Below are positions 2,765 through 32,871 of a stretch of 33,778 nt of DNA, piece by piece. Source of the DNA: Lentisphaeria bacterium (GTDB lineage Bacteria; Verrucomicrobiota; Lentisphaeria; Victivallales; Victivallaceae); the NCBI GenBank assembly GCA_022768375.1, contig JALEMG010000064.1, positions 1-33,778 of the forward strand, given 5' to 3'. Every line of letters starts with the position of its first letter. The first letter of the stretch is position 1. The translations under genes were made by a program, and so were the position numbers. The notes below the pieces were generated by a model. The model searched no databases. It was not told where the DNA came from and saw only the letters and a list, made by a program, of their open reading frames with translations.

Positions 2765-2875
2765 GATTTTTTGCAAAAGTCAATCGAGATTTGCAGTAAA
2801 ATCACGCAAAATTCGATGGAGGCACCGATCAAGTCCTCACCTGCTTTTCCCCAATCTCTGCCCCCCGAAAAACTG

Positions 2876-3040
2876 AAAAAAGAAATCTGCCCCCGGCAGC
2901 GGGACGCCGGTCGCCGCTTTGCGGCGAAACCTCAGCGAAGCGTTCAGGTCGGCGCGGGCCGACACCTCCCGCCGGGAGCGATGTTGCGAAAAAAATCGCA
3001 GATTTTGCGCAACGGTTGAGCGGGAGGCGGCTTGACCGCA
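2876..3040 (+). repeat. Structured intergenic repeat, copy 1
   Basis: Copy 1 of a dispersed element whose reverse complement occurs at 7015-7195. Conserved parts in order: an A-rich start and GAAATC; stem CGCCGC/GCGGCG (2912-2926); the block CTCAGCGAAGCGTT; stem GTCGGC/GCCGAC (2948-2963); then CCTCCCGC (2965-2972) pairing with GCGGGAGG (3020-3027) around a central hairpin (2984-3012, TTGCG/CGCAA plus AAAAT/ATTTT). It ends in CTTGACCGCA. Short open frames across it give similar peptides in both copies, but these follow from the repeat and are not supported as genes. It occupies the otherwise gene-free stretch 2708-3336, the rest of which holds the ATPase promoter and the hairpin at 3125-3180. 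Confidence 0.85.
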
Positions 3041-3094
3041 TCGAATGAAAAATCAGATGTCTTTTAGGTTGAATTTTCCCATTTGTTGCCGCAA

Positions 3095-3180
3095 GTACTC
3101 CGCTTTTCTTGAAAGGGGTGAGGGTTTGGGAGCGGGGAAAATCTCTTTTCTCGGGAAAAGAAGTTTTCCCCGCTCCCAAA
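3095..3180 (-). repeat. Long hairpin with CAAGAAAAG box
   Basis: TTTGGGAGCGGGGAAAA (3125-3141) and its perfect complement at 3164-3180 form a 17-bp stem. Inside it, after a 3-nt interior mismatch, CTTTTC (3145-3150) pairs with GAAAAG (3155-3160) over a TCGG loop. Read on the minus strand the core ACTTCTTTT...AAAAG matches hairpins at 23538-23569 (+) and 32872-32843 (-), and it is followed by CAAGAAAAGCGG (3111-3100), a box also found next to those hairpins. It is in an intergenic region about 160 bases ahead of the gene at 3337. It has no U-tract, so it is more likely a REP-like element than a simple terminator. Confidence 0.7.
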
Positions 3181-3209
3181 GTTCCCCTGCAAAAATTGTT
3201 AATAAGTTT

Positions 3210-3239
3210 TTGTCGGTTGGACACAAAATGTCCAATAAT
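3210..3239 (+). promoter_or_regulatory. Promoter with embedded palindrome ahead of the gene at 3337
   Basis: TTGTCG (3210-3215) and AATAAT (3234-3239) with an 18-base spacer form a plausible sigma70 promoter. A perfect 7-bp inverted repeat, TTGGACA-5-TGTCCAA (3217-3235), fills the spacer and overlaps the -10, the position expected for a repressor operator. No cognate regulator is identified. Confidence 0.4.
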
Positions 3240-3336
3240 GGGTGCTATTTTAAGAATGGAGTGTAAGAAAAAGGGGTTCGCCGGGCAGTAAGTCGGCGGG
3301 CGGAAAATTTCATCGAACAGCGGAGGGAAAAGGAAC

Positions 3337-4245
3337 ATGCTGAAGAAAACGTTCTGGGTGATCGTGCTGATCGGCGCGGTCACAGTCGCGGCGGTCGCCG
3401 GGATATGGTATTTCCGCAGCGGGCGGAAAATTTCACCTCCGCACACGGCTCATGCGTCCGCCGCCGCGGCTCCCTCTCTGGATTCGGTGCGAATGGTGAT
3501 TGAAAAATACCGCGATGAAAAATTGAAGTCCGAACTTTCGCGGGTGGAATTTCGGGTTGGGGATCGGGTATTGTTTTCCAAAGATTGTTTCTATCATGTC
3601 GGCTTTATGAGAGAGAGCCAACTCCGCGGTAATGCGTATGAATATTACGCGATGAAGCCGGACGATGACTGGCGGGATTTTCTGACCGATATCAGGGGAG
3701 ATGGGGACAAGCGTTATCTGATTCTGGCCGACTGGGGCGGCGGGAATTCCGCTTATTGTTATGATGGCTATTTGATCGATGCCAAGGCGGGCTTCGCTTA
3801 TCTCGGCGAAGTCCCCGCCGGGGAAATGGTGGGATATAAATTGCCCAATCCGGAGTTGATTTTTTTCCACAGTGACGACGTCGAGTATTTTGGAGTTCAC
3901 GGTTATGCCACCATCGGAGTCAACTTGAAATTGGTTCCGGGCAAGGAGCCGGAATTTGCGGGGAAGCGGATGAAAGCATTTCACGTTTCGGAATTTCGCC
4001 GGGACCTCGCCAATCCCGATCAAACCGATAAACTCATGGGAGAAAAGGAGTATCGCTGGATGATGTTTCTGTGTCTCTACTGTGATCTGGCCACCGGAGG
4101 CTGGATGAAACATGCCCGGGCGATTGCGAAAAAAGGCGGTTTTACTCAGGCGGAAATCGACGAATACGATCCGAAAGCGAGGAAATCCATTCGAACGAGC
4201 AGGTATTACAAATATTTGGTTCGACTCAATGGTTTCAATTTTTGA
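3337..4245 (+). CDS. Hypothetical protein with N-terminal membrane anchor
   Basis: A 302-residue protein I do not recognise. Residues 5-27 (TFWVIVLIGAVTVAAVAGIWYF) form one hydrophobic segment with a lysine before it and arginines after it, so it is likely a signal anchor or uncleaved signal with the rest outside the cytoplasm. An Ala/Pro/His-rich linker follows (about 33-47). The body contains charged helical stretches and a Gly-rich turn (ADWGGGNSAYCYDGYLID) that looks like a globular domain with a bound or displayed loop. An AGGGAAAAGGAAC ribosome site supports the ATG. Base composition is lower in GC than the flanking housekeeping genes, as in the SEL1 genes just downstream on the same strand, so the four may be one transcription unit. 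Confidence 0.75.
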   Translation: MLKKTFWVIVLIGAVTVAAVAGIWYFRSGRKISPPHTAHASAAAAPSLDSVRMVIEKYRDEKLKSELSRVEFRVGDRVLFSKDCFYHVGFMRESQLRGNAYEYYAMKPDDDWRDFLTDIRGDGDKRYLILADWGGGNSAYCYDGYLIDAKAGFAYLGEVPAGEMVGYKLPNPELIFFHSDDVEYFGVHGYATIGVNLKLVPGKEPEFAGKRMKAFHVSEFRRDLANPDQTDKLMGEKEYRWMMFLCLYCDLATGGWMKHARAIAKKGGFTQAEIDEYDPKARKSIRTSRYYKYLVRLNGFNF

Positions 4246-4273
4246 TAAGTTCTACGGAAAGGAAACGGGAGCA

Positions 4274-4982
4274 ATGATGATGAAGCGGTGTGCGGCGGCG
4301 GTGTTGTGGGCGATGTTGGGCGGAGCGGCGGTTTTCGCGGCGGCGGCGGAGCAGGTGCCGCCGAATATCGTCGAATTGCGGCAGAAAGCGGAGCGCGGCG
4401 ACGCCGAGGCGCAGTACAAATTGGGCGACTGTTTCGCCGCCGGAGAGGGCGTCAAGCGGGATGGGAATGAAGCGCTCAAGTGGTTTCCGCAAGGCGGCGG
4501 AACAGGGAGATGCCAATGCACAGTTTGGTCTCGGGCTGTGTTATGCCAAGGGCGACGGGGTCCAAAAAGACCTTGCCGAAGCGGTCAAGTGGTTCCGCAA
4601 GGCGGCAGAGCAGGGAGTTGCCGATGCACAGTTCTTTCTCGGGCTGTGTTATGACAATGGCGACGGGGGCCAAAAAGACAATGCCGAGGCGGTCAAGTGG
4701 TTCCGCAAGGCGGCAGAGCAGGGAGATGCCAAAGCGCAGTTCAATCTCGGGGTGTGTTATCACGACGGTGATGGGATCAAACAAGACCCCGCCGAGGCGG
4801 TCAAGTGGTTCCGCAAGGCGGCAGAGCAGGGAGACGTCAAGGGACAATATAATCTCGGAGTGTGTTATGCCAATGGCGATGGGGTGAAACAGGATTACTC
4901 CGAAGCGCGCAAATGGCTGGAAAAAGCCGCCGCTCAGGGCCATAAACAGGCAGCGGAAGTGCTCAAGGAATTGGCACGGTAA
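4274..4982 (+). pseudogene. SEL1-like repeat protein, frameshifted
   Basis: The reading starts at ATG 4274 (the first of three consecutive ATGs) with a signal-peptide-like N-terminus (MKRCAAAVLWAMLGGAAVFAAAAEQ), then five 36-residue SEL1 repeats and a closing EKAAAQG helix, ending at TAA 4980-4982. The frame breaks in repeat 1. Where other repeats have TGGTTCCGC, this one has TGGTTTCCGC (4481-4490), one extra T in the run 4484-4486, so the signal peptide and the last four repeats are in different frames. Repaired, it would be a secreted or periplasmic SLR protein of about 235 residues. SEL1 repeats are alpha-alpha scaffolds for protein-protein contacts. The extra T could be a real inactivating or phase-variable change, or a sequencing error. 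Confidence 0.75.
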
Positions 4983-5015
4983 ATGTGATCGGAAAAACAG
5001 CAGGAGAACGTTAGA

Positions 5016-6083
5016 ATGGAATTCGTCTTTTTGGCCTTGGCGATCGGAGTGTGTGCGGCTCTGGGGTATCAACTTTATCGCCGCCGCGCTCAGCGGCGTG
5101 ACTATTGTATCGGGATCGGCGTCAGCATTGTGCTGTTGGCACTGCCCACATTGACCGCCGGGGTTTGGGCATGGGATCATTCATCTGGAAATTGGCTGAC
5201 CGCGTACCTTGCATGGAGAAGTTTTACCTTTTTTGCCGTTTGCTCCGGGGGAATTGCCGTTTTGTGTTGCTTGGCGTGTTCATGGATACGCTTGATTCGT
5301 TCGTCAGTCCGGAGACTGCGCAACAAGGGCGCCGCACCACATCATGAAGTATGGAAATATGCGGCTCTCTGCGGGATCATTTCAGGTGCGGCGGTGTTGC
5401 CGGTAGTTTGTCTTTCTTTGATGGTCTACCCTGATTACTCGTCATATTTCCCAATCTACCTGCTTGTTGCGGCGGCGGCCCTGCTGCTCGGTTTGTGGTA
5501 CTGGTTGTTCTGCCGCCGTGTCGGAAAATCCACGGCGGTCGTCGCCAACATCATCGTTTTGATGATGATCGCGATCCCCTTGCTGATGGCGACGGTTTCT
5601 TTCGTGATATTATGTCATTGTCAGTCGGTGCTCACGGGAGAAGCTCGATGTGAGATCGGAAAATTTTACGATTATTTCGGCCTCACAGGGGAGGCATATC
5701 GCTGGTATCGCCGGGCGGATAAAGACGGTGCTTATTATTTGGGCCGCTGCTACGATTACGGTCGCGGTGTCCCCAAAGATATGACCGAAGCGGTCAAGTG
5801 GTTCCGCAAGGCGGCAGAACAGGGAGTTGCCGAGGCGCAGTTTTTGCTTGGCGCGAGTTACGCTTTCGGGCGCGGCGTCCCCAAAGATATGACCGAGACG
5901 GTCAAGTGGTTCCGCAAGGCGGCAGAGCAGGGAGATGCCAAAGCGCAATACAACCTCGGGGTGTGTTATGCCAATGGCGACGGGGTGAAACAGGATTACT
6001 CCGAAGCGGTCAAGTGGCTGGGAAAGGCCGCCGCGCAGGGCAATAAACAGACAGCGGAAGTGCTCAAGGAATTGGCATGGTAA
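5016..6083 (+). CDS. Multi-pass membrane protein with C-terminal SEL1 repeats
   Basis: A 355-residue protein. The first 200 residues hold about six hydrophobic segments (roughly 2-20, 31-52, 68-90, 114-137, 144-166, 175-200). The C-terminal part (about 215-355) holds SEL1 repeats: a degenerate one (YRWYRRADKDGAYYLGRCYDYG) followed by two close copies with KWFRKAAEQG at the junctions. The gene starts 33 bases after the previous SLR gene; GGAG lies about 10 bases before the ATG. Its last 46 codons, the following spacer and the first 23 codons of the next copy are near-identical to the end of the 4274 gene, the spacer and its own start, so the cluster arose by tandem duplication with an offset of 1101 bases. 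Function unknown; the layout suggests a membrane-bound scaffold with an SLR domain on one face. Confidence 0.85.
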   Translation: MEFVFLALAIGVCAALGYQLYRRRAQRRDYCIGIGVSIVLLALPTLTAGVWAWDHSSGNWLTAYLAWRSFTFFAVCSGGIAVLCCLACSWIRLIRSSVRRLRNKGAAPHHEVWKYAALCGIISGAAVLPVVCLSLMVYPDYSSYFPIYLLVAAAALLLGLWYWLFCRRVGKSTAVVANIIVLMMIAIPLLMATVSFVILCHCQSVLTGEARCEIGKFYDYFGLTGEAYRWYRRADKDGAYYLGRCYDYGRGVPKDMTEAVKWFRKAAEQGVAEAQFLLGASYAFGRGVPKDMTETVKWFRKAAEQGDAKAQYNLGVCYANGDGVKQDYSEAVKWLGKAAAQGNKQTAEVLKELAW

Positions 6084-6116
6084 ATGTGATCGGAAAAACA
6101 GCGGGAGAACGTTAGA

Positions 6117-6197
6117 ATGGAATTCGTCTTTTTGGCCTTGGCGATCGGAGTGTGTGCGGCTCTGGGGTATCAACTCTACCGCCGCAACGTCTCGTAG
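6117..6197 (+). pseudogene. Duplicated 5' end of SLR membrane gene, ending in TAG
   Basis: Twenty-six codons that repeat the start of the 5016 gene (MEFVFLALAIGVCAALGYQL then YRR) with the same ribosome site and spacer, then diverge to NVS and stop at TAG 6195-6197. The frame continues open after the stop into the 6204 reading frame, so without the TAG this would be a single 285-residue protein with an extra N-terminal membrane segment. Most likely a recombination junction between a duplicated 5' end and an older SLR membrane gene. Confidence 0.65.
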
Positions 6198-6203
6198 CGC
6201 CGG

Positions 6204-6974
6204 GTGTTGAGCTGTTTCGGAATCAGCATGGTGTTCATGATTATTTTTTTGACGTGCGGAATGATATCTGTACTCCTTGCCTATGCCTGCCCCGTCACCA
6301 CGCATCTCGCCTTACTTTGCAGCGGTCTGGGCATCATGTGGATAGCATGGTACTTCATCGGAAAATATGTGAAACGCACCGCGTTCTTTCTGGGTGGTAT
6401 CTTTTGCGGCATGGTCACAGTGGAGATGTCGTTCGTATTCGCCGTCACATACAAACTGTTCTATTCGGAGAACACATATCCTGCCGCCGTATTGTTGGCG
6501 GGAGCAGTTCTTTTCGGAATGTTTTTCTGTTGGTTGCGCCGTGGGGGCAACACCAAAGATTTTGCGATAGGAAATTGCGTCGTCTTGTACTGTGCCGCCT
6601 TGCCGACACTACTGGCAGCCGGAATTTTCTGTATTGCCTGTCATTCCGATCTATCTCCGCGGAACCTGAATAATATCGGAGTATTTTACGATGAGTGGCT
6701 GCCGATCCCATCCGAAAAATTCCGCTGGTACAGCAAGGCGGTGGAAAGCGGATGTTACGACGCATACTACTCTTTGGGACGGTGTTACGAGGAGGGGCAT
6801 GGCATAAGTCAGGACTATGCAAAAGCGGCGCACTGGTATCATAAGGCGGGAGAATTTTCCGCCAAGAAATACGCTTACCGCGCGCTGTTCCGATTGGCAT
6901 ACTTTTACCGCAACGGATTGGGGGTGCCGCGTGATCGGCAAAAGGCCCGGGAATTGGAGTATCAGATTCTTTAA
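6204..6974 (+). CDS. Membrane protein with two SEL1-like repeats
   Basis: A 256-residue reading frame (GTG at 6204; ATG at 6228 is an alternative, giving 248 residues). Hydrophobic segments lie near residues 8-28, 34-52, 60-83, 93-110 and 122-147. Two SEL1-like units follow (about 171-213 and 221-255; WYSKAV...YYSLGRCYEEGHGISQDYAKAAHWY and a shorter degenerate one). It has the same layout as the protein at 5016 but little close identity outside the repeats. Neither candidate start has a clear Shine-Dalgarno sequence, which fits loss of the original start by the upstream duplication; translation may depend on the preceding mini-gene. It is the last plus-strand gene of the cluster and converges with arnC. 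Confidence 0.7.
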   Translation: MLSCFGISMVFMIIFLTCGMISVLLAYACPVTTHLALLCSGLGIMWIAWYFIGKYVKRTAFFLGGIFCGMVTVEMSFVFAVTYKLFYSENTYPAAVLLAGAVLFGMFFCWLRRGGNTKDFAIGNCVVLYCAALPTLLAAGIFCIACHSDLSPRNLNNIGVFYDEWLPIPSEKFRWYSKAVESGCYDAYYSLGRCYEEGHGISQDYAKAAHWYHKAGEFSAKKYAYRALFRLAYFYRNGLGVPRDRQKARELEYQIL

Positions 6975-6975
6975 A

Positions 6976-7211
6976 AAGGCTCTGTTCTTAAACATTACCT
7001 GATTCTTCAATCCGTGCGGTCAACCGCCTCCCGCTCAACCGTCCCGGAAAAAAATTTCCGGGACATCGCTCCCGGCGGGAGGTGTCGGCCTGCGCCGACT
7101 TCAACGCTTCGCTGAGATTTCGCCGCCTCAAGCGGCGACCAGCGTTCCGCCGCTGGACCACGTCCGGGCAGCGCCCGGGGGCGGATTTCTTTTTTATTTT
7201 TACAGAGCCTT
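6976..7211. repeat. 10-bp inverted arms enclosing repeat copy 2
   Basis: AAGGCTCTGT (6976-6985) and ACAGAGCCTT (7202-7211) are perfect inverted repeats that enclose copy 2 of the structured repeat. They begin two bases after the stop codon of the 6204 gene. They could be terminal repeats of a MITE-like insertion or the closing stem of a large RNA fold. Copy 1 does not have them, so they may belong only to this insertion. Nothing in the enclosed 236 bases looks like a gene. Confidence 0.5.
7015..7195 (-). repeat. Structured intergenic repeat, copy 2 (inverted)
   Basis: Reverse-complement copy of the element at 2876-3040. Stems present: CCTCCCGC (7027-7034) with GCGGGAGG (7075-7082); a central hairpin TCCCGGAAA/TTTCCGGGA (7042-7063); GTCGGC/GCCGAC (7084-7099); CGCCGC/GCGGCG (7121-7137). 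The distal part is about 15 bases longer than in copy 1 and contains another CCAGCG/CGCTGG-type stem. The central hairpin has a different sequence from copy 1 but is again fully paired. It lies between the convergent SLR gene and arnC, whereas copy 1 lies upstream of two divergent genes, so the element is not tied to gene ends. Confidence 0.85.
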
Positions 7212-7244
7212 AAAAAAAACCGAAAGAATCGTCTACGCCTTCGG
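7212..7244 (-). terminator. Terminator at the end of arnC
   Basis: On the minus strand CCGAA (7244-7240, inside the last codons of arnC) can pair with TTCGG (7224-7220), followed at once by eight T residues (7219-7212). The stem is short and the loop is 15 bases, but the U-tract is strong. It would end the long prs-to-arnC transcript. Confidence 0.45.
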
Positions 7245-8198
7245 CTCGTCGCGGCCGAGGACGGATTCGATGAAGTAGCGCGGACGGGCGCGGACATCGG
7301 TGTAGACGCGGCCTATGTATTCGCCGATGACGCCGAGGCCGATCATCTGGATGCCCATGAAAATGAACAGCACCGCAAACAGCAGAAAACTGCCGAAATT
7401 GCCCCATGCATCCCCGTCGGAAAATGCGAACCGCCGAATGACGATGTAGAGGCTCAGCAGGAAGCCGCAGAATGCGGCCAGCAACCCGAACCACGTGGTC
7501 ATCCGCAGCGGCGCGGTGGTCATGCAGGTGAGCAGATTGAACTGCAGATTGATGAGTTTGATCAGGGAATACTTGGATTCTCCGACGGTGCGCTCCGAAT
7601 GTTTCACGGGTATCTCGCAGGTCCGGCGGGCAAAACTGTTGCCCAGCACGGGGATGAAGGTACTGCGTTCGTTGCACTGGAGCATGGCATCCACCACGAA
7701 TCTCCGGTAGGCGCGGAGCATGCACCCGTAATCGCTCATATGGACGCCGGTGGCTTTCCGGGCGAAAAAATTCACGATCTTGGACGCGGTGCGGCGAAAC
7801 AGCGTATCCTGCCGGTTCTGCCGGACCGTTCCGACCACGTCGTACCCGGCTTCGGCGGTTTCGACCAGTCGGGGAATCTCCTCCGGCGGGTTCTGCAGAT
7901 CGGCGTCGAGCGTGACGATCAGATCGCCGCGCACCAGCGAAAATCCGGCGGTGATCGCCGCATGCTGGCCGTAGTTGCGGTTGAGCATACAGCCGACGAC
8001 CTCCCCTTCGGCTTCGGCGGCCCGGGCGATGATCTCCCGCGAACCGTCGGCGGAACCGTCGTCGATCAGAATGAGTTCAAACTTTTTCCCGGCGGGGCGC
8101 ATTGCCGCCAGCACCCGGGAGATCAACTCCTCCAGACATCCCGCTTCGTTGTAGACCGGGATGACGATGGAAACGAATTCGACTTGATCACTTTGCAT
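7233..8198 (-). CDS. arnC: Undecaprenyl-phosphate 4-formamido-4-deoxy-L-arabinose transferase
   Basis: Family 2 glycosyltransferase of 321 residues that resembles E. coli ArnC along its whole length: SIVIPVYNE near the start, IDDGS (45-49), [10 protein letters not shown] (73-82), the DAD metal/sugar-nucleotide motif in [16 protein letters not shown] (97-112), [28 protein letters not shown] and [10 protein letters not shown]. Two C-terminal membrane segments (about 233-255 and 268-293) anchor it. ArnC moves formyl-aminoarabinose from UDP to undecaprenyl phosphate on the cytoplasmic face of the inner membrane. GGAGGA lies nine bases before the ATG, and the gene overlaps the end of the ArnT-like gene by 11 bases, indicating coupling. 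ArnA and ArnD, needed to make and deformylate the donor, are not in the window. Confidence 0.92.
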
Positions 8199-22017: not shown

Positions 22018-23568
22018 ATGGGAACTCTGCTGGCCGACATGGTTCTGGACGCGGTCCGGCTCGGAAGCGGATGGGAGTGCCGAGTCCGGGAGATCGCGGC
22101 GGAGCGTCTCGGCGTCCCCGTCGCGGCGGTATCGGAGGCGGAGATCCTCTCGGCCTCGGTGGATTCCCGGCGGGGCGCGCCGAAAATCCTGCTGACGCTG
22201 CGGGTCGAAGCCGCCGGAGTGCCCGCGTCGCCGCCGGAACTTTTCGCCGGGTTCGTCCCGGAAGTTCCGCGTCTGGCGCCGCGTTTCGCTTCACTGCGCC
22301 ACCCGCTCGTCGTCGGCACCGGACCGGCGGGCATCTACGCCGCGCTGCTGCTGGCCGAATCAGGCTGCGAACCGATCATCCTCGACCGGGGCGCGCCGGT
22401 CGAAGAACGAACGGCGGACTGTGAAAATTTTCTCCGCACCCGGACGCTGGACCCGGCGAGCAACCTGCTCGTCGGCGAAGGCGGCGCAGGGACCTTCTCC
22501 GACGGCAAACTTTACACCGGGATCAAAGACCGCCGCGCCGGATGGGTCAAGCAGATCATGGCCGAATGCGGCGCACCCGACGAGATCCGCTGGAAAAGCC
22601 GCGCCCACGCCGGCAGCGATTCCCTCCGGCGCGTCGCCGCCAATCTGCGCCGCCGCATCGAGGCGCGGGGCGGACGGTTTCTCTTTCACACCGAAGTTGT
22701 CGACGTCGCCGTCCGCTCCGGCGTCTGCGCCGGGGTCGTCACCGCCTCCGGGGAAACCATCACCGCGCCGCTGACCCTCATCGCCCCCGGTCTCGGCGGC
22801 CGCGAACTGGTCCGCAATCTCACCCGCCGCGCCGCGTGGGAACCCAAACCCTTTCAGATCGGCTGCCGCATCGAACACCCGCAGGACTTCATCGACCTCC
22901 GGATGTACCGCATGCCCCGGCCAGCCGCCCTCGGCGCGGCGGAGTACCATCTCGTCAGCCGGCGATCCCGCCGTCACGTCGCCTCTTTCTGCATGTGTCC
23001 GGGCGGCGAGATCGTCAACGCCACCGCGTGGGAACACCGCTCCGCCACCAACGGGATGAGTTTTTTCGCCCGGGACGGGAAGTTCGCCAACAGTTGCCTC
23101 ATCGCCACTTTCGCCCCGGGAGAACTGGGCAGCCCGGAGGAAACGTGGGAACGCATCGCCGCTTTGGAACGCGCCTGCTTCGTTTCCGGCGGCGGCGACT
23201 ACACGCTCCCGGCGCAGGACGCCGCCGCCTTCCTCCGGCGGCGGGACGGCCTCTCCTCCCGCGCCGGCTCCCCCGCCGTCGGCATCAGGCCGGGCCGGAT
23301 CGACGAACTCGTCCCCGCGGAACTTTTCGCCGCGCTGGACGCCGCCCTCCGGGATTTCGACGCCCGCGTTCCCGGATTCATCCGCCGCGGACGCTTCATC
23401 GGCGTGGAAAGTTGCGTCTCCTCGCCGATCCGGTTTCTCCGCGACCCCGTCAGCGGGGCAAGTTCCCTCCCCCGTCTCTACCTCGCCGGAGAAGGCTGCG
23501 GGGCGGCAGGCGGCATCATCTCCGCCGCCTGCCACTCCTTACTTCTTTTCACGCAGGAAAAGAAGTAA
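22018..23568 (+). CDS. FAD-dependent dehydrogenase, COG2509 type
   Basis: A 516-residue flavoprotein. After an N-terminal region of about 85 residues (conserved as a ferredoxin-like or FAD-linked domain in this family) comes the dinucleotide-binding site PLVVGTGPAGIYAALLLAESG, ILDRGAPVEER, then VGEGGAGTFSDGKLYTGI, an alternating barrel-like substrate region, and the closing FAD block LPRLYLAGEGCGAAGGIISAACHS. The combination GEGGAGTFSDGKL with EGCGxAGGI is that of the uncharacterised NAD(FAD)-utilising dehydrogenases. The start ATG 22018 lies five bases after xer. Its stop codon lies inside a perfect 13-bp hairpin. Substrate unknown. Confidence 0.85.
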   Translation: MGTLLADMVLDAVRLGSGWECRVREIAAERLGVPVAAVSEAEILSASVDSRRGAPKILLTLRVEAAGVPASPPELFAGFVPEVPRLAPRFASLRHPLVVGTGPAGIYAALLLAESGCEPIILDRGAPVEERTADCENFLRTRTLDPASNLLVGEGGAGTFSDGKLYTGIKDRRAGWVKQIMAECGAPDEIRWKSRAHAGSDSLRRVAANLRRRIEARGGRFLFHTEVVDVAVRSGVCAGVVTASGETITAPLTLIAPGLGGRELVRNLTRRAAWEPKPFQIGCRIEHPQDFIDLRMYRMPRPAALGAAEYHLVSRRSRRHVASFCMCPGGEIVNATAWEHRSATNGMSFFARDGKFANSCLIATFAPGELGSPEETWERIAALERACFVSGGGDYTLPAQDAAAFLRRRDGLSSRAGSPAVGIRPGRIDELVPAELFAALDAALRDFDARVPGFIRRGRFIGVESCVSSPIRFLRDPVSGASSLPRLYLAGEGCGAAGGIISAACHSLLLFTQEKK

Positions 23569-23616
23569 GACAAGAAAAGGCGACTGCGTTGCTTTCTTTA
23601 TGCGAAAGAAAGTAAC
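23538..23616 (+). repeat. Twin hairpin at a stop codon
   Basis: Hairpin A: CTTACTTCTTTTC (23538-23550) and its perfect complement (23557-23569), 6-base loop; the TAA stop of the upstream gene (23566-23568) is in its right arm. A spacer of 18 bases begins with ACAAGAAAAG (23570-23579). Hairpin B: GTTGCTTTCTTT (23588-23599) with AAAGAAAGTAAC (23605-23616), one G-T mismatch, 5-base loop. The same A-spacer-B layout, spacer length and box recur on the minus strand behind groEL. No U-tract follows on this strand. Confidence 0.75.
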
Positions 23617-23686
23617 TGAAGAAAGCGGGGGCCGGCTTGGAATCCCCTCGCAACCGGACCGCGAGCGGCCTGCGGACGGTTGCCGC

Positions 23687-32774: not shown

Positions 32775-32794
32775 GATGCGGTGTCTTTTCTTTG

Positions 32795-32871
32795 GTTCCT
32801 TTCTTTTCGGGAAAAGAAAGGAACGTATCCCGCTTTTCTTGTAAAACTTCTTTTCTCGTAAAAAGAAGTTT

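Follow-up and report, generated by a model that had tools for sequence, protein, structure and literature searches.

Two facing repeat copies in the window

We analyzed contig JALEMG010000064.1 of a Lentisphaeria bacterium (33,778 nucleotides, called here the window), which is contig C64 of a 2.25-Mb draft genome, G000, referred to below as the own genome. The window carries two inverted copies of a short, folded, non-coding element, copy 1 and copy 2, and the family to which they belong is dispersed over many contigs of the own genome. This family is probably a non-autonomous, modular dispersed repeat of the miniature inverted-repeat transposable element (MITE) type, MITE/BIME-like in character and built around a core of covarying hairpins. 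The features of both copies and of the two genes next to copy 2 are as follows:

2868-3030, plus strand: structured core of copy 1 (118.9 bits with covariance model R1, whose training set includes this copy; hairpin H1 deleted)
2983-3013, plus strand: central hairpin H8 of copy 1, TTGCG type (TTGCG/CGCAA), by direct reading
6978-7209, minus strand: complete element, copy 2, with ends GGCTCTGT...ACAGAGCC (direct reading, left-end pattern match, alignment to the family ends)
7024-7183, minus strand: structured core of copy 2, hairpins H1, H3, H4, H6, H7 and H8 (model R1, alignment A2, pair counts)
7041-7064, minus strand: central hairpin H8 of copy 2, TCCCGGAAA/TTTCCGGGA (direct reading, folding)
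6971-6977, no strand: left target duplication TTAAAAA (direct reading; flanks alike in 7 of 8 bases)
7210-7216, no strand: right target duplication TTAAAAA (direct reading)
6204-6974, plus strand: third SEL1-type open reading frame (ORF), convergent to copy 2 and ending 3 bp before it (type judged from the repeat pattern)
7233-8198, minus strand: glycosyltransferase-like gene, upstream of and codirectional with copy 2 (type judged from the translation)

Copy 2 is a full-length element of 232 bp without a transposase gene of its own, and its limits, set by its own ends, are wider than those given in a preliminary description of this locus. Its core has a guanine-cytosine (GC) content of 70%, scores 179.8 bits with model R1 (which was also trained on it) and folds well on both strands (z-scores of -5.22 and -5.25). 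The stop codon TAA of the adjacent SEL1-type ORF (6972-6974) falls inside the left target duplication.

The preliminary description reported an inverted, structure-sharing repeat pair, and our alignment agrees: with their flanks and in inverted orientation the copies have a mean column identity of 82%, and a BLAST search of the own genome with copy 1 finds copy 2 at E 3.7e-35. Chance likeness is ruled out by this value together with 23 further strong places. One correction is needed, as 22 alignment columns are missing in copy 1 and correspond to its absent first hairpin. The central hairpin was said to be replaced with pairing kept, and the two H8 sequences listed above are exactly such a pair. 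Copy 1 has decayed ends without recognizable terminal repeats (the end-pattern scan gave no match there), and its fold barely beats shuffled sequences (z-score of -1.45). Copy 1 has decayed and, with its different central hairpin, represents another subtype than copy 2.

Size and distribution of the family

At most 40 candidates were scored in the BLAST search with copy 1 and at most 14 per genome with model R1, so that all copy numbers are lower bounds. With copy 1 as query, the own genome contains at least 53 matches, at least 25 of them at E 2.1e-23 or better, including the query and copy 2. Copy 2 also yields at least 53 matches, 24 of which span over half of the query; another 17 rows, at E 5e-6 or better, are confined to its first 64 bases (one of them from a place already counted), and the places behind these partial rows have the common 5' part, often the last 25 bases, and mostly another middle. 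Relatives were detected by DNA query in 22 of 60 genomes, own included; within the genus, 13 of the 33 other genomes were positive and 20 had none. With model R1, relatives were detected in 46 of the class's 197 genomes, again including the own one, and in 18 of 85 genera. Thus, the suggestion of a REP- or MITE-like family was sound, and the two window copies are not a private pair. In distant genomes the first hairpins and their loops are best kept, and a core of H1, H3 and H4 is retained in distant families.

A 32-base element pattern occurs in 46 stretches of the named collection, all from Lentisphaeria/Lentisphaerae metagenome-assembled genomes: 39 from RGIG4167 (roe-deer colon), which we take from matching coordinates to be genome G187, and 7 from RGIG5542 (sheep colon), SIG80, SIG92 and SIG96. 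The element had no match in plasmids or phages, one exact 32-base element pattern had none in viral contigs, and the B body described below had none in plasmids. Spread on plasmids or phages is therefore rejected within the sets searched.

Terminal repeats and target duplications

The complete form with a structured body is mostly about 230-300 bp long, up to 365 bp, and consists of imperfect terminal inverted repeats (GGCTCTGTAC...), an A-rich leader and a chain of hairpins. Such terminal repeats were found for G000, G016 and G187. We listed 32 inward-facing end pairs in these genomes, 93-489 bp long: 15 from the fetched stretches of G000 and 17 from G016 and G187 that were picked because both ends were seen. 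The list includes the apparently spurious pairs C9:79555 and C40:63739 and pair L265, which lacks a right flank; window copy 2 fell below the end-pair cut-off and is outside the 32. The target duplication is 8 bp long and often AT-rich. In 17 of the 32 pairs, 98-365 bp long, 7-8 of the 8 flanking bases are identical, compared with a mean of 0.94 pairs and a maximum of 5 in 2000 shuffles. The two ends of the RGIG4167 copy L258 are identical over 25 bp (GGCTGTGTACTAAACATAGACTGAT). Among the genus relatives, both ends were found in 1 of 27 copies.

Behind genes homologous to the glycosyltransferase-like gene, the element is absent in all 13 relatives compared (69.7-81.0% amino-acid identity). The sequence after the homologous gene differs among these relatives, so the comparison demonstrates absence rather than an exact empty site. 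The ends, the duplications, the absence in relatives and the mostly unrelated upstream genes of different copies together give the picture of a dispersed, mobile repeat.

Exchangeable bodies and alternative shells

Scanning the fetched 0.57 Mb of G000 for the 5' module gave 39 hits: 20 of type A, with a body as in the window; 14 of type B, with a different body containing TTACTTCTTTT palindromes; and 5 others. One of the latter, C59:44642-44745, is a shell without a body, in which the 5' and 3' parts join directly at GGCGGC. Two short remnants of 98 and 119 bp in the relative G016 have duplications of 8/8 and 7/8. B bodies without the 5' module also occur (112 matches), several as rows with units about 150 bp apart (C44, C5, C48, C58). 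The family thus combines fixed end modules with variable internal modules, as is characteristic of BOX-like repeats.

The core occurs in GGCTSTGTAC-type shells in three genomes. A different shell is seen in G014, where CACTGCATCCACC on the left and GTGCATTGCGGGC on the right occur together in 3 of 5 copies, and 2 of 4 copies in G025 have the left CACTGCATCCACC; in the same 92 kb these two sequences occur 27 and 24 times, versus 3 and 3 for the reversed spellings. None of the four end patterns was present in 14 of the 27 genus-relative copies. Given several shells and shell-free copies, the core occurs in more than one setting, and in these settings it usually has the A-rich leader first and lies sense to the gene.

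Covariation in the structured core

Alignment A2 comprises 55 distinct copies from the own genome, RGIG4167 and other relatives. From 78 distinct full-length extracts, a first parser kept 43 and dropped 35; a second kept 54, to which copy 1 was added. When the six-helix structure of copy 2 is imposed, 94.1% of the cells are standard pairs, versus 32-53% with partners slid by 1-3 columns; this percentage is favored by deriving the structure from one of the aligned sequences. The preliminary description expected a covariance model to reveal many copies with compensatory changes, and this was borne out: 17 of 36 pairs are changed on both sides, a number reached by 1 of 500 shuffles. Cells with double changes number 183, compared with 57.8 in shuffles and 8-39 in slid controls, and the covariation score is 0.270 versus 0.118, reached by none of 500 shuffles. 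The count of further pair types is not raised (31 versus 32.4). Related sequences can beat shuffles; the slid controls preserve relatedness.

RNAalifold agrees on H1 (four of five pairs), H3, H4, H6 and most of H8, whereas it pairs H7, the outer stem, with a different segment, so that H7 is uncertain. Variants of H3 are CCAGCG/CGCTGG, CAAGCG/CGCTTG, CCGGCG/CGCCGG and CCAACG/CGTTGG; those of H6 are GTCGGC/GCCGAC, ATTGCC/GGCAAT and GTCGCC/GGCGAC; and the types of H8 are whole stems swapped as blocks. Loop letters and hairpin order are conserved across genera. For the most part, the compensatory changes distinguish subfamilies and species from one another.

Private substitutions of single copies are not clearly rarer in stems than elsewhere, at 0.0083 versus 0.0144 per site in 20 copies of the own genome (p 0.14) and 0.0035 versus 0.0052 in 16 copies of RGIG4167 (p 0.58). 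Those in stems mostly break a pair (9 of 12 and 3 of 4, respectively; small numbers). With these small numbers, the data fit selection, or whole-hairpin exchange, among copies as they spread better than selection acting copy by copy. Imperfect pairs comprise 41 G-U cells in 12 pairs and 24 A-C cells in 11 pairs (29 versus 18 in an earlier parse without the alignment). Since neither type is clearly preferred, these data do not single out sense RNA, as opposed to DNA, as the molecule that folds.

Placement behind genes

Gene context was taken from a simple in-house hexamer gene caller for 39 matches in the own genome, 33 in RGIG4167, 32 in other relatives and 25 in distant families. The distant set is 25 of 29 matches, leaving out three further tandem copies and one cut match; elsewhere tandem copies were counted separately. 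Of the 83 copies whose nearest upstream gene stops no more than 150 bp away, 72 are codirectional with that gene, compared with half for random orientation: 24 of 27 in the own genome, 15 of 18 in RGIG4167, 18 of 19 in other relatives and 15 of 19 in distant families (one locus already counted removed). At any distance, the codirectional to antisense ratios are 28:9, 18:10, 28:2 and 16:7, respectively, or 90:28 in total (90 of 118). Beyond 150 bp, the upstream gene in RGIG4167 leans antisense (7 versus 3 codirectional). Copy C24 (near 21572) was missed by the scan and is outside these counts; its upstream gene is codirectional.

The first hairpin starts no more than 30 bp past the stop codon in 10 of the 24 near copies of the own genome, and two of the three reading frames of the consensus left end contain stop codons. 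Copy 2 follows the glycosyltransferase-like gene at a distance of 23 bp and is codirectional with it. The earlier view that neither copy has a fixed place relative to genes therefore does not hold for copy 2 or for most of the family; copy 1, whose upstream gene is 176 bp off and points away, is the exception.

Several explanations for a structured repeat at this position were discarded. A cis-regulatory RNA or riboswitch would be associated with a conserved gene family; among 74 upstream proteins (25 own) there was no own-to-other match at E 1e-10, and the remainder gave three weak pairs of 27-41% identity, tandem copies apart. An intrinsic terminator (hairpin plus U tract on the sense strand) does not fit, as no T run closes the core consensus, and in the 150 bp that follow the core an uncalibrated in-house detector called a sense terminator in 2 of 62 copies. 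Insertion into existing terminators was suggested by C52, C59 and window copy 2; as a general rule it is rejected, since a sense terminator was called upstream of the element in only 4 of 79 copies (in-house detector without a positive control). Integron attC sites were dropped because the copies are dispersed (no integrase search was made). A known RNA family is rejected: no Rfam family reached its gathering score in the window, and the 10 permissive matches at copy 2 were far below theirs. Acido-Lenti-1 (RF01687), listed for Lentisphaerae (PMC2864571), was not among these 10.

Interpretation and alternative explanations

By its ends and, where kept, its duplications the family is a MITE; by its modularity it is BOX- or BIME-like; and its class-wide covarying core and its orientation are unusual. 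A mechanism joining the direct observations (copy number, terminal repeats, duplications, covariation, the favored sense placement behind genes, different bodies in one shell) could be as follows: (i) a putative transposase acting in trans would recognize the ends and move the shell, (ii) the core would be carried as a passenger that can be lost or swapped for other hairpin modules by recombination at the GGCGGC joints, which were read from sequence, and (iii) the position behind genes would reflect tolerated insertion sites plus an orientation preference. Insertion there would be tolerated because no promoter is broken and because of the stop codons in the left end. Pairing might persist because a folded form, as single-stranded DNA or as RNA, is important to copies that spread, whereas individual copies decay.

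Several results weigh against a MITE-type origin. No clear duplication accompanies 15 of the 32 end pairs, and the symmetrical ends leave the orientation bias unexplained. The two ends were not found together in 26 of 27 genus-relative copies, so the GGCTSTGTAC-type shell cannot be the sole carrier. Our transposase search covered three families. PF12762 (DDE_Tnp_IS1595) was found in none of 5 draft genomes and PF13610 (DDE_Tnp_IS240) in none of 3, on which grounds an IS1595-derived and an IS6-derived element, respectively, were rejected; the latter candidate had come from the IS6 end sequence. PF01797 (RAYT, Y1 transposase) was absent from G000, with the same profile responding in 5 of 14 controls. 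Inspection by eye of the end-pattern matches from 7 draft genomes revealed no inward-facing pair of these ends at a spacing of 0.7-3 kb; draft assemblies, which break at repeats, may conceal an autonomous transposon.

The placement data could instead indicate a functional 3'-untranslated-region RNA that is transcribed with the upstream gene, its fold protecting the mRNA end, attenuating transcription or binding a protein, with copies selected in place. The prevalence of codirectional near genes (72 of 83), the covariation with invariant loop letters across species and the H1-H3-H4 core of distant families agree with this. We consider it rather unlikely, since imperfect pairs have no clear strand bias (41 G-U versus 24 A-C cells), private changes strike stems nearly as often as other sites and mostly break pairs (small numbers), upstream genes are mostly unrelated, the uncalibrated detector found no regular intrinsic terminator before or after the element, and in RGIG4167 the more distant upstream genes are more often antisense. 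The pairing might also be maintained by mutation alone, with template switching between the arms of imperfect palindromes rewriting one arm from the other. Block replacement of whole stems, as in the H8 types, and the missing strand bias are compatible with such a process, which leaves the cross-genus conservation of loop letters and hairpin order unexplained and does not agree with private stem changes that mostly stay uncorrected; as the explanation of the pairing it seems quite improbable.

The occurrence of the core in different shells, or with none of the four end patterns, raises another reading, which we regard as doubtful: the covarying core would be a structured nucleic acid, mobile in its own right throughout the class, with directional insertion at the 3' ends of Lentisphaeria genes and only occasional capture by transposon shells. 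Such a core would amount to a bacterial short interspersed element with a mobility of its own, possibly based on RNA or single-stranded DNA. Least credible is the earlier proposal that the facing pair forms an inversion or insertion boundary of a 4-kb island. It draws on the inverted orientation around the segment and is highly improbable, given that the family is scattered across many contigs, that copy 2 is delimited by ends and a flanking duplication of its own, that copy 1 has decayed and belongs to a different subtype, and that the homologous gene end lacks the element in 13 of 13 relatives.

Comparison with known repeats

Bacterial MITEs, as characterized in PMC10969869, are short, non-coding, mostly intergenic and strongly folding, with terminal inverted repeats and a target duplication, and the element shares these features. 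MITEs are given there as typically AT-rich, whereas the core of copy 2 is GC-rich, as noted above; further differences from that description are the six covarying hairpins kept across genera, the exchanged middle and the absence of a partner transposase among the families searched. The BOX elements of Streptococcus pneumoniae are presented in PMC3049150 as modular composites in which the outer modules are fixed and the middle varies, predicted to form folded RNA and over-represented between convergent genes. Our element resembles them in all these respects; features recorded here for our element are its single preferred orientation behind a gene and its core in 18 genera. It also resembles REP, BIME and REPIN sequences, which are dispersed extragenic hairpin palindromes in mosaic combinations and are linked in PMC3116915 to RAYT transposases; it differs from that account in the lack of a detected RAYT in the own genome and in its unit, a 160-base multi-hairpin core rather than a REP doublet. 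Its multi-stem covarying structure is like that of Rfam structured RNAs. We found no description of this family in the literature searched, mostly outside subscription papers.

A structured family with an 18-genus core, amplified at sites that differ between species, recombined and lying mostly sense behind genes makes two open questions testable: whether bacterial miniature repeats owe their form to mRNA 3'-end function or to being mobile themselves, and how structured passengers get from one transposon shell to another. The covariance model can also be used to annotate a poorly studied phylum.

Other repeats in the window and in related genomes

The interval 3337-6974 between the copies contains one hypothetical gene and SEL1-type genes (types judged from translations), as previously described. 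The SEL1-type genes are duplicated in tandem at 4461-6974. The SEL1 start ATGGAATTCGTCTTTTTGGCC at 5016 recurs at 6117; the frame that opens there runs into a stop after 26 codons, and the third SEL1 copy therefore looks damaged at its start. Behind copy 1, at 3125-3180, lies a nested, near-perfect hairpin with a 17-bp outer stem TTTGGGAGCGGGGAAAA; the folding energy of 3100-3190 is -51 kcal/mol. Similar hairpins in relatives occur behind the element in L162 and behind a gene end in L212.

At 23538-23639, where one gene ends and ahead of a convergent neighbor, lies a B-type palindromic module (TTACTTCTTTTCACGCAGGAAAAGAAGTAAG and a second palindrome), of the kind seen as the element's alternative body at other places in the genome. 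A related palindrome, GTTCCTTTCTTTTCCCGAAAAGAAAGGAACC, lies at 32786-32824, close behind the last gene of the window. Elsewhere in G000, a tandem 72-bp unit with the leader and first hairpin of the element was observed at contig ends (C19:11340-11475 and C49:4030-4240). In the SIG96 stretches L148, L158 and L161, the conserved 32-base core is found within long rows of very short hairpins (GCCGCAAGGC, GCCGGAGGC). L164 (G017) has tandem element copies whose repeated unit starts with GGAATTAAAGATAAATAA, a sequence that seems to be the upstream gene's end; it looks as if the element was amplified along with the gene end.

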